A stretch of DNA of 53,445 nt from Campylobacterales bacterium (GTDB taxonomy: Bacteria > Campylobacterota > Campylobacteria > Campylobacterales > Campylobacteraceae): the NCBI GenBank assembly GCA_014859645.1, contig JACUTV010000009.1:1-53445 (forward strand), read 5' to 3'. This document shows, piece after piece, positions 35,269 to 39,174 of the stretch; within the stretch, counting starts at the first letter, position 1, and each line of letters begins with the position of its first letter. A program made the position numbers and the translations under genes. Below the pieces are notes generated by a model. The model searched no databases. It had not been told where the DNA came from and worked only from the letters and a program-made list of their open reading frames with translations.

Positions 35269-37653
35269 TTAAGGAATTAACTCAAGATGTTGCTCACACA
35301 CCCCTTTCCACGAACTCTCTTCCACCGCTTCTGCACACTGTTTAAAATACCCTTTTGCCTCGGCCACTTTTCCTAGCTTAGCACTTAACTCTCCCGCATA
35401 ATACTGCGAGCGAATCCTCTCTTGGGGTGAATGCACGCGGGGGATGAGCGCGACCGCTATTTCTAACGCTTCGGCCACTTTCCCTAAACGCTGAAGGGCT
35501 TGGATGGTTTCGTATTCGAGTTCTGGCGTAAATAAAAATACATTCATGCGCTCTTGCACTCCCAGCGCTTCGTTAGCGTAAATTTCTAACAGCAAATCAT
35601 TGCCCTGAGCCTTAGCATACCGCATCACTTCTAGGTACACTTCCACGCTTTTATAGACACCTGGAAGCGTGCGCATAATTTGTTGAGCAACCTCAAGCGC
35701 TCTCTCATTTTCTCCTAAGCGTACGAGTGCAAAAAACTTCTCAAACAACGCTTCTTTCGCTTTGGGCTCTTTTACTAAAACCCCAAGCTCTATAATATCT
35801 TCACTAATCTTCACCACTTCGCGCCATCTTCCCACTTTAACAAGCGCTTGATTAAGACGCATCATCCATGCCAACCGAGTCCGCAAATCACGCTCTTGCA
35901 CATGGGCGCTAGCTTCTTCTGCTGCTGCGTCAAACCGCGAAAGGCGCATCAAACACTCAAAGAGCTTTTCTCGTTCTTGTAGCTGTGCTCCGATTCCATA
36001 GCGCTCAATGAGCATCACTGCTCCTTGGCACTGATCTTCTTTTAAAAGCAGTGTTGTTTGCTCAAAGGCGGTCGAGGAGAGGGTTTGCAAGGCTTCTTCT
36101 GCCAAACTCACGTCCCCAATAGCCCGAAGCAAACCGTCTAACTCCAACACTTGGGCGTATTTTGCCTCTTTGTGCAAAAGTTTGGCTTTTTCCACAAGGG
36201 CCTTTTCGGAGATTTCATTGTCGTAGCGCTCCATCAACGTGTCGTAATATGCTGTTAGTTTTGTGCTGTTAGTTTCTGCTAATTCAAAAAAGAGACGGTC
36301 TAACCCCTCTTGAACCTGTACGGAAAATTCTCCTTCTGGGAATTGGGTTTGGTAGCGCGTAAGGTACAAATGCCCCTTACTTACTTCTCCTGATTCCCCA
36401 TACCACAACCCCGTATTTTTCAATAACACTTCGTACAACGGATGGGCGCGACCTTTGTTTGTCAGCAACGATTCTGAAATTTGCGCAGCAATATCTTCAA
36501 GGCGGTTGTGGGCTAACTTTTCGGCTAACTCATACGCCGCGGTATCGTCTTTGAGTAAAAATTCGGCATTGGCATTCAAAATCTTCACAAGGTACTCTTT
36601 GGCTTCGTTCACTTTTCCTAAATCAATACTGTTTTGCGCCAATCGAATCGCCGCTTCTGAAGCCATGTCTAAGTCTTTAGCTGTATACAACACATCGTTA
36701 TACAACCGGAGTGCTTCTGCGCGTTTTGTGCCATTGTAGAGGGTATCTGCGTAGAGCAAGATAGCCCATTTAGTAAAACGGTTTTCTGGATATTCGGTAA
36801 TGAGAATGTCTAAAAAATAGTTAGCATCGCTCGAAAATCCCATTTTTAGGTAATTTTTAGCCACCAACATAAGCACTTCAGCAATGTTTTCATCGGAGGA
36901 AAAGTTTTTCATCCACGCCTTTCCTTCACTAACCACATCATTGCGGTCAAGAGTCGAGAAAGGATTGGCTTCGTCCACGTCCAACAAATGGTCCATGGCG
37001 CGGATTTTATACAAGGCAAATTCACTTTTAAAGATGGTTTGAGGGTAGAGCATCATGGCTTCTTGGGCTTGTTCCATTACATTTTCAAAATGCCCCGCTT
37101 CGTAACTTCGCTTCATGTCCAAATAGGCATTAATATCTCGGCTTCGCACGTACCCAATAGGTGCGCCGTTTAAATCAAGAGCTCCTACACTGGGGCGCTG
37201 AAATTGCGGATAGGCCACCGGAAAATTAATACCATCTTCAATCACTGGGTTCACAAAAGGCAATTCTTGGTAGATAAGAATAGCCCAGTGTTTAGCCCTG
37301 CCTCTTGGCGCAAGAGGCGCCTCAATGCTCTCATGAAGTGCCACATCCATGTTGTGCATTTTTGAATCAAAAGTCGGGGTAATAATGATTTCAAAACTCT
37401 CTTCATGTTCCACAAACTCAATCTGCACCAAAGGGGTTTTTTGAGAAGCAATGCGGTTGGTTAAAATCTTTTCAAACTGGCAGGTGTATTTTTTTTGGCC
37501 CAAAGGAAGGTCTGTAATGAAGCATTCAATAGGTGTGTCATTCATCAAATGCAAGATAGCATACGGGCGATTATCTTCTTGTGCACTGTTGAGTACCAAT
37601 GTCACAGAGTGCACTGATGAAAGTAAAATAATGAGGGCAAGGAGGTGTTTCAT
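35269..37653 (-). CDS. pflA: Paralysed-flagella protein PflA, TPR periplasmic motor component
   Basis: 794-residue periplasmic protein with a signal peptide (MKHLLALIILLSSVHS). The N-terminal beta-rich domain (to about 165) is followed by a long array of TPR-like helical pairs to the C-terminus, including YLKMGFSSDANYFLDIL and AIRLAQNSIDLGKVNEAKEYL. Length, architecture and position directly after nuoN match C. jejuni PflA (about 788 residues, next to nuoN), from memory. PflA with PflB forms the spoke/disk that holds stators in the motor. No Shine-Dalgarno precedes any of the three ATGs at 37662, 37659 and 37653; MKHLL is chosen because the signal peptide starts there. Confidence 0.82.
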   Translation of the reverse strand: MKHLLALIILLSSVHSVTLVLNSAQEDNRPYAILHLMNDTPIECFITDLPLGQKKYTCQFEKILTNRIASQKTPLVQIEFVEHEESFEIIITPTFDSKMHNMDVALHESIEAPLAPRGRAKHWAILIYQELPFVNPVIEDGINFPVAYPQFQRPSVGALDLNGAPIGYVRSRDINAYLDMKRSYEAGHFENVMEQAQEAMMLYPQTIFKSEFALYKIRAMDHLLDVDEANPFSTLDRNDVVSEGKAWMKNFSSDENIAEVLMLVAKNYLKMGFSSDANYFLDILITEYPENRFTKWAILLYADTLYNGTKRAEALRLYNDVLYTAKDLDMASEAAIRLAQNSIDLGKVNEAKEYLVKILNANAEFLLKDDTAAYELAEKLAHNRLEDIAAQISESLLTNKGRAHPLYEVLLKNTGLWYGESGEVSKGHLYLTRYQTQFPEGEFSVQVQEGLDRLFFELAETNSTKLTAYYDTLMERYDNEISEKALVEKAKLLHKEAKYAQVLELDGLLRAIGDVSLAEEALQTLSSTAFEQTTLLLKEDQCQGAVMLIERYGIGAQLQEREKLFECLMRLSRFDAAAEEASAHVQERDLRTRLAWMMRLNQALVKVGRWREVVKISEDIIELGVLVKEPKAKEALFEKFFALVRLGENERALEVAQQIMRTLPGVYKSVEVYLEVMRYAKAQGNDLLLEIYANEALGVQERMNVFLFTPELEYETIQALQRLGKVAEALEIAVALIPRVHSPQERIRSQYYAGELSAKLGKVAEAKGYFKQCAEAVEESSWKGVCEQHLELIP

Positions 37654-37679
37654 GGGCATCATTATAGCACATGCCCATG
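37651..37679 (-). promoter_or_regulatory. Perfect inverted repeat over the pflA start and an extended -10
   Basis: CATGGGCAT (37651-37659) and ATGCCCATG (37671-37679) are a perfect 9-bp inverted repeat with an 11-base spacer. On the minus strand the spacer contains TGCTATAAT (37661-37669), an extended -10, and the right arm contains the pflA start codon. It may be an operator, or a hairpin that hides the start when transcription comes from nuo. Transcription from the -10 would give an almost leaderless mRNA. Confidence 0.6.
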
Positions 37680-37692
37680 AAAAGAAAAACGC

Positions 37693-39174
37693 CTAAAAAC
37701 CACTAGCGATCACATACTCCGCGATAAACCCGATGAGTGAATCCACAAATAACACGGCACAAAGGGTCATCACAAGAGCAAACCCAATAATGCTTTTTAG
37801 TGGCGTAGAAGCATTGATAGCGTAGATACTGCCATCTTTAGCAATAGGGTCTTTTAAGAACATAAACACCACCAACTTCATGTAATAATAAACCGCGATA
37901 GCACTGTTGAGTGCCATAATAACAGCCAACCCAATGTACCCCGCATTCACCGCAGCACTCATTAAAAAGAGTTTGCCCCAAAAAATAGAAAAAGGCGGAA
38001 TACCTGCAAGGGAGAACATAAATACACCCATAATCGTAGCCGCCATCGGACTGACTTTAACCATCCCTGAAAACTTCGTAAATGGGTGTTGGTACCTAGC
38101 GTCCCACAGGTTTTGCTTGTTGCGGGCAATCCACAGCATGGAAAAGGCACCAAGGTTAGTAAATAAAAACATCATCCAGTACAAAAAGAATCCCACATTC
38201 GCTTGGGTTGTGCCAATCAAAATAGCCGCAAGCACAAAACCTGCATGAGAGATGGAACTAAAGGCTAACATGCGTTTGACGTCCGTTTGCACTAACGCCA
38301 TCAAGTTTGCCAAGGTCATGGTAAGCACGACGGCCACGAACAGCACATCTTCAAGCCACACCACGCCTGATTGGGCTAACATTTCAAACAAACGCATCGC
38401 TACTACAAAACCCGCGACTTTAGGGACAATGGACATATACCCTGCTAACGCCGCGCTTGAACCTTCATACACATCAGGTGTCCACGTGTGGAACGGAATG
38501 ATGGAAAGTTTAAACCCAAGGGCCGCCAACATGAATACCGTAGCCCCAAGCACACCTATCATGGGGTCAAAGCCACGCTCATAAAGAACATTGACAATCA
38601 CGCCAATCTCTACACTGCCTGTGAGGGCATAAAAAAGCAAAGCAGAAAAGGCGTAAAACCCTGCGGCTAATGCACCCATGGTAAAGTACTTAATAGCGGC
38701 TTCAATGGCTTTGAGGCGGTTGTGCATGGCAATCATGGTGTAAAGTGCCAACGAAGCTGTCTCTAGCCCAATAAAAATCAAAATCAAGTTGTCGCTTGAG
38801 ACCATAAACAAAAATCCTGCCACCATAAACAAAAACAGGGCAAAAAATTCAGGCATGGTAAACTCATGAAAACGCTTAGAACTGAGCGCCAAAGGAATAA
38901 ACAGCACCGATGTTACCAAGATAATCAACCCCGAAAGTACCGCAATGCCGTCCATGAGCATCATGTCAAAAAAGCCACGCTCCGAACCGCTAAGCCCCAA
39001 GGTTGCTCCAATGGAAAGGATGATTACCAAGACGGCAATCATGGTATAAAAACTGCGTGAGAGGTCGCGTTTAAACAAATCAATACAAAGAATCGCAAGA
39101 GCACCGATCACCAAAATCAAGGTAGGCATCAGCGTTGCCATATTGAGCGTTGCTAGGTCAATGGAAATAGGCAT
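37693..39174 (-). CDS. nuoN: NADH-quinone oxidoreductase-like complex I subunit N
   Basis: 493-residue antiporter-like membrane subunit with about 14 hydrophobic helices. GLETASLALYTMIAM with the essential Glu in TM5 and KLSIIPFHTWTPDVYEG with the key Lys are present. Last gene of the nuo operon; its start overlaps the nuoM stop as TAATG. GGAGGT lies upstream. The 39-base gap to pflA holds the inverted repeat. Confidence 0.95.
   Translation of the reverse strand: MPISIDLATLNMATLMPTLILVIGALAILCIDLFKRDLSRSFYTMIAVLVIILSIGATLGLSGSERGFFDMMLMDGIAVLSGLIILVTSVLFIPLALSSKRFHEFTMPEFFALFLFMVAGFLFMVSSDNLILIFIGLETASLALYTMIAMHNRLKAIEAAIKYFTMGALAAGFYAFSALLFYALTGSVEIGVIVNVLYERGFDPMIGVLGATVFMLAALGFKLSIIPFHTWTPDVYEGSSAALAGYMSIVPKVAGFVVAMRLFEMLAQSGVVWLEDVLFVAVVLTMTLANLMALVQTDVKRMLAFSSISHAGFVLAAILIGTTQANVGFFLYWMMFLFTNLGAFSMLWIARNKQNLWDARYQHPFTKFSGMVKVSPMAATIMGVFMFSLAGIPPFSIFWGKLFLMSAAVNAGYIGLAVIMALNSAIAVYYYMKLVVFMFLKDPIAKDGSIYAINASTPLKSIIGFALVMTLCAVLFVDSLIGFIAEYVIASGF

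Follow-up and report, generated by a model that had tools for sequence, protein, structure and literature searches.

The start codon of pflA in a Campylobacterales bacterium lies in the 3′ arm of a 12-bp inverted repeat, the loop of which is occupied by the extended −10 element of the same gene (contig JACUTV010000009.1, positions 1–53,445; this whole stretch of 53,445 nucleotides is referred to below as the window). This hairpin, together with an internal promoter that very probably directs synthesis of a leaderless mRNA, probably acts as an insulator of pflA from read-through transcription of the upstream nuo operon, as judged by comparison of related sequences. Hairpin insulation of a leaderless gene, with the extended −10 of that gene as the loop and the start codon in the 3′ arm, may well have arisen at least twice at the nuoN–pflA junction, as an alternative to a terminator that is present in a sister lineage.

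The nuoN–pflA Locus

Both nuoN and pflA lie on the minus strand, and the sequence that follows the nuoN stop codon (37693–37695, 39 nt upstream of the pflA start) is GCGTTTTTCTTTTCATGGGCATGTGCTATAATGATGCCCATGAAACACC. The features of the locus, in the direction of transcription, are as follows.

37693–39174, minus strand: nuoN, final gene of the nuo operon (NCBIfam NF004444 NuoN, 783 bits)
37671–37682, minus strand: 5′ arm of the predicted hairpin in read-through RNA, TTTCATGGGCAT; first 10 nt invariant in four genomes
37661–37669, minus strand: extended −10, TGCTATAAT, within the hairpin loop; hexamer kept across two families
37657–37662, minus strand: two additional in-frame ATGs, not conserved in genome G012; both precede the predicted RNA 5′ end
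37648–37659, minus strand: 3′ arm of the predicted hairpin, ATGCCCATGAAA, which includes the start codon
37651–37653, minus strand: pflA start codon (MKHLL) and predicted transcription start (A 37653 or C 37654), 7 nt past the −10; the ATG of MK is conserved in relatives
35269–37653, minus strand: pflA, putative paralysed-flagellum protein A, a periplasmic motor scaffold (coordinates from the inferred start)

In a domain search, the product of 35269–37653 has Pfam PF24323 (DUF7494) at its N-terminus and weak TPR matches. This is as expected for PflA, in which a TPR superhelix, the part that makes up the proximal-disk spokes, comes after an N-terminal β-sandwich (PMC12222027). From this domain layout and the nuoN neighborhood, we infer that the product is PflA. 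Orthologs are present in 121 of 153 genomes of the window's family, 43 of 44 genomes of the neighboring family and 297 of 397 genomes in the class sample; named members of the two families include Campylobacteraceae MAGs and Sulfurospirillum species. A literature search for Cj1565c, or for pflA together with nuo, gave nothing bearing on the 5′ end of pflA.

Promoter and Start Codon of pflA

Three in-frame ATGs follow the −10 (37660–37662, 37657–37659, and 37651–37653), and direct reading of the sequence finds no Shine-Dalgarno before any of the three, as the initial annotation had stated. The true pflA start, conserved in relatives, is the third ATG (MKHLL). G012 has ATA in place of the first ATG, and G001 and G012 have GTG in place of the second; both positions also lie upstream of the predicted RNA 5′ end, and they were rejected as starts.

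The upstream regions of 134 orthologs were compared. Across the two families, 86 of 99 genomes have an exact TATAAT 5–7 nt upstream of the pflA start: 45 of 58 in the sample from the window's family and 41 of 41 in the second, where TGn precedes it in every case. The spacing in the window is TATAAT-N7-ATG. TATAAT at 5–7 nt is also kept where pflA is not adjacent to nuoN, which indicates that the pattern belongs to pflA. Families f7 and f10 likewise have TATAAT before the pflA start; in families f16 and f4, a purine-rich, ribosome-site-like sequence precedes the start and no such −10 is seen. Because TATAAT is kept across two families despite differing upstream genes, the pflA mRNA of this bacterium is very probably leaderless, with its 5′ end placed from the conserved anatomy. 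Leaderless transcription from this −10, as originally proposed, is thus well supported.

The pattern TATAATN6–7ATG is found at 28 sites in the whole genome of this bacterium (12 for a reversed control). Further candidate leaderless genes with TATAAT-N6/7-ATGAAA include L192, L204, L205, L198, and L203, two of which are response-regulator-like (MKLLLLEDDPILSEIIEEF, MKILLLEDNTRLNATITKR). A stem of the kind seen at pflA is present at only one of the 28 sites; hairpins as a general habit of leaderless genes were rejected, as the stem is at most 7 bp at the other 27. One of the loci considered, L190, has a 6-bp stem, and its relatives gave only mixed paralogs; it was dropped as a second candidate.

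An Inverted Repeat Enclosing the −10 and the Start Codon

The initial annotation described a 9-bp inverted repeat, CATGGGCAT-N11-ATGCCCATG, at 37651–37679. The repeat is present, and its perfect arms actually extend to 12 bp around the loop of 11 nt (TTTCATGGGCAT, 37671–37682; ATGCCCATGAAA, 37648–37659). No other perfect inverted repeat in the 53-kb window has arms of 10 bp or longer around a loop of 3–20 nt, and six shufflings of the window gave one repeat with 10-bp arms and none longer. When the −10 and the ATG are held fixed and the upstream and spacer bases are shuffled, a stem of at least 12 bp arises at the start codon in 4.5e-5 of shuffles. The RNA of the region folds better than 200 of 200 shuffled versions (z = −3.2). 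The 2.78-Mb genome has a single copy of the exact dyad, and the form TCATGGGC-N8–24-GCCCATGA is found among 397 Campylobacterota genomes only at pflA of the window's genus; looser dyads occur elsewhere, above the level of a reversed control.

A consensus scan for an intrinsic terminator between nuoN and pflA found none. The stem itself was rejected as an intrinsic terminator for nuo because a T-run is absent on both strands: past the stem, the minus strand reads CACCTCC and the plus strand AGAAAAACG.

Two neighboring features were recorded separately. On the plus strand, antisense to the junction (window positions 37641–37696), the strong ribosome-site-like sequence AGGAGGTG is followed by the 14-codon open reading frame MGIIIAHAHEKKNA (37652–37696). 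This frame, with its AGGAGG-like site, was rejected as a gene: the congener retains it, but a stop codon breaks it in G012 and it is not maintained in G009. Its ribosome-site-like sequence is merely the reverse of the KHLLA codons. In the congener G001, a different, 11-bp inverted repeat, CTTGACTTTTGCACTATAATAGTACAAAAGTCAAG, brackets a TATAAT (L219, 1452–1486) directly before a small nucleotidyltransferase-like gene and its partner, and looks like a putative operator of an MNT/HEPN-type pair.

Conservation of the Hairpin

The pflA hairpin is carried by four genomes of three genera (G000, G001, G012, and G009). In their alignment, the left arm TTTCATGGGC, TATAAT, and the right arm GCCCATGAA are invariant, and the flanks and the remainder of the loop drift. 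At four-fold degenerate sites of pflA, the pairwise identity of the same genomes is 23–42%, and of the 84 four-fold sites that they share, only 4 show no variation among the four genomes. An invariant 10-nt arm that lies outside the gene, at a divergence that saturates four-fold sites, indicates that the arm is under selection. The repeat was thus found conserved in the close relatives, where the initial annotation had taken a lack of conservation as an argument against its proposal.

A stem of at least 10 pairs is predicted in all four genomes (counting G-U in one), at about −17 to −19 kcal/mol. In the predicted read-through RNA of each, the AUG is about 0% unpaired; in the predicted leaderless RNA, it is 38–85% unpaired. 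Three of the genomes have 15 nt between the invariant arms; G009 has 12 nt, and pairing is retained. Such a change in arm distance, with the helix preserved, is more readily reconciled with the loop of an RNA than with two half-sites for a protein, the spacing of which would be fixed in an operator and is not so here (15, 15, 15, and 12 nt). No compensatory change or covariation in the arms is found within the four-genome clade. Some positions of the right arm are constrained by the start and lysine codons, and possibly by a spacer preference, so that recognition of the sequence by a protein could also account for the unvarying left arm.

The Same Junction in Sulfurospirillaceae and Other Relatives

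In nearly all Sulfurospirillaceae in which pflA adjoins nuoN, an intrinsic terminator follows the nuoN stop codon (e.g., AAATAAGGGGTGAAAATCCCCTTATTTT). Its T-run leads directly into GCTATAAT, with ATGAAA six bases on, and the terminator ends about 6–13 nt before TATAAT. Terminators fused to the extended −10 of pflA were recorded at L005, L051–L075, L078, and L079, about 20–60 nt upstream of the start.

In two members of this family, G207 and G208, the terminator is displaced or degraded, and a different 10-bp stem (ATGGGTACAT/ATGTACCCAT) brackets the same TGCTATAAT. This stem covers the AU of AUG and has a chance frequency of about 4e-4; in the longer predicted RNA, the AUG is less firmly paired than in the four-genome clade (27–29% unpaired). 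The sequence upstream of the repeat differs between G207 and G208, and the repeat does not. On these sequence features, the arrangement appears to have originated a second time here. Folding of the start codon in read-through RNA, as the initial annotation envisaged, is supported in these structure predictions by the invariance of the arms in four genomes and by this second hairpin in another family. We infer that the nuoN–pflA junction is separated either by termination of the RNA or, putatively, by hiding of the start.

The nuoN-adjacent relatives in genera g3 and g4 of family f1 have neither terminator nor hairpin, which indicates that insulation is not compulsory. Two low-G+C genomes of genus g2 (loci L180 and L181, upstream of pflA) have A+T-rich repeats of 10–12 bp, in which the left arm overlaps the −10 and the right arm is inside pflA, with the AUG left in the loop; these are possibly due to chance in such sequence.

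Proposed Mechanism and Alternative Explanations

Transcription from the promoter of pflA itself, with an extended −10 located 7 nt before the start codon, would yield an mRNA with its 5′ end at, or within one base of, the AUG. RNA that reads through from nuo would contain both arms and form the 12-bp hairpin, with the transcribed promoter as its loop. With the AUG in the 3′ arm, the start would be hidden in the read-through copy, which also has no Shine-Dalgarno. RNA from the internal promoter would be without the 5′ arm, as the position of the conserved −10 requires, so that the hairpin could not form and the RNA would be translated. The net effect would be to insulate pflA from nuo transcription, and the same job is apparently done in most Sulfurospirillaceae by the terminator that abuts the same −10. 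Read-through from nuo into pflA is assumed here because a terminator is lacking in this clade, and translation of the read-through RNA might be weak even if no hairpin formed, Shine-Dalgarno being absent. The device is not essential, as judged from the g3 and g4 relatives. The initial annotation went further and proposed a switch between respiratory transcription and motor-protein synthesis. This is unsupported, as nothing shows reciprocal control of nuo and pflA; the terminator at the same spot in Sulfurospirillaceae points to plain insulation of pflA from nuo rather than to a switch, and insulation is the simpler reading.

The −10 is bracketed by symmetrical arms that are invariant without covariation in four genomes, as is typical of a protein site, and the arms could be a DNA operator: a dimeric regulator would occupy the two arms, spanning the −10, and repress transcription from the pflA promoter. 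We regard this as unlikely, because the 3-nt difference in arm distance (12 versus 15) would rotate the half-sites by about 100°, the full dyad, unlike looser dyads, is absent elsewhere in its own genome and in the 397 genomes, and another sequence fills the role in G207 and G208. The site of a general regulator was rejected because the exact dyad is not found elsewhere. It is also rather doubtful that the promoter alone is functional, with the left arm kept for the promoter spacer or for stability of the nuo mRNA 3′ end and with the hairpin either incidental or a barrier to 3′ exonuclease. Such a reading would accommodate the retention of the promoter without the hairpin in most relatives, and a stem that has no T-run and hence is not an intrinsic terminator. 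However, TTTCATGGGC is located upstream of the same promoter in no other sampled genus and is thus dispensable for the promoter, and the match of the left arm to the arm that holds the start codon, at a chance of 4.5e-5, recurs with another sequence.

Translational coupling, in which ribosomes that end nuoN translation open the hairpin so that pflA is translated from the polycistronic RNA, is favored by the position of the nuoN stop codon about 10 nt before the left arm, where a terminating ribosome could disturb the base of the stem. We consider it very improbable, given that pflA is without a Shine-Dalgarno, that 39 nt separate stop from start, that a stable stem would re-form and that the leaderless spacing is conserved also where nuoN is not upstream. 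Chance extension of the self-complementary CATG at the start codon into a longer repeat deserves least credence: CATG is its own reverse complement and supplies four pairs free, but the stem arises in only 4.5e-5 of shuffles, is conserved at saturating divergence and has a second, independent counterpart. Insulation of pflA by the hairpin and the internal leaderless promoter is the reading that we prefer.

Comparison with Known Systems

The proposed arrangement resembles that of gene e of phage T4 (and of soc, 49, and I-TevI), in which a late promoter is located inside a hairpin that sequesters the start. The long early RNA of gene e hides the initiation region, and the promoter within the region of the 5′ strand gives a shorter, well-translated RNA (PMC3014915). 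Similarly, the pflA start codon lies in a predicted hairpin of the longer RNA, with a 12-bp stem and an AUG predicted to be about 0% unpaired. Unlike gene e, pflA belongs to the motor genes of a bacterium and follows a respiratory operon, and its short RNA is predicted to be leaderless; in addition, its −10 forms the loop, and its promoter is of the σ70 type and is not timed by a phage sigma factor.

Insertion sequences offer a related case. In IS10 and IS50, RNA that enters from outside folds over the transposase start, and RNA from the internal promoter does not; it is the Shine-Dalgarno region that is sequestered, in a mobile element. In contrast, pflA is neither mobile nor Shine-Dalgarno dependent.

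Leaderless genes of Campylobacterota have been described in the dRNA-seq analysis of C. jejuni, in which TAnAaT directly precedes the ATG, the transcript 5′ end is at the start codon and a ribosome site is absent (Porcelli et al., 2013; PMC3847290). The pflA −10, located 5–7 nt before a start that has no Shine-Dalgarno, is of the same design. According to that study, leaderless genes are little conserved from one species to another, and a single gene is leaderless in all of them (Porcelli et al., 2013; PMC3847290), whereas the pflA layout is kept through two families. If leaderless transcription is confirmed, pflA, which is needed for the high-torque motor, would be a leaderless case maintained through both.

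A further comparison is with the terminator–promoter of Sulfurospirillaceae, which has the same junction, −10 and start and also separates nuo from pflA. It differs in that it stops the RNA rather than hiding the start, has a T-run and leaves the start codon outside. The junction therefore offers a natural comparison, in related bacteria and with the promoter constant, between stopping an RNA and hiding its start codon; if the proposed mechanism is true, it would show that the design known from phage T4 is also used in an ordinary bacterial operon and with leaderless translation.
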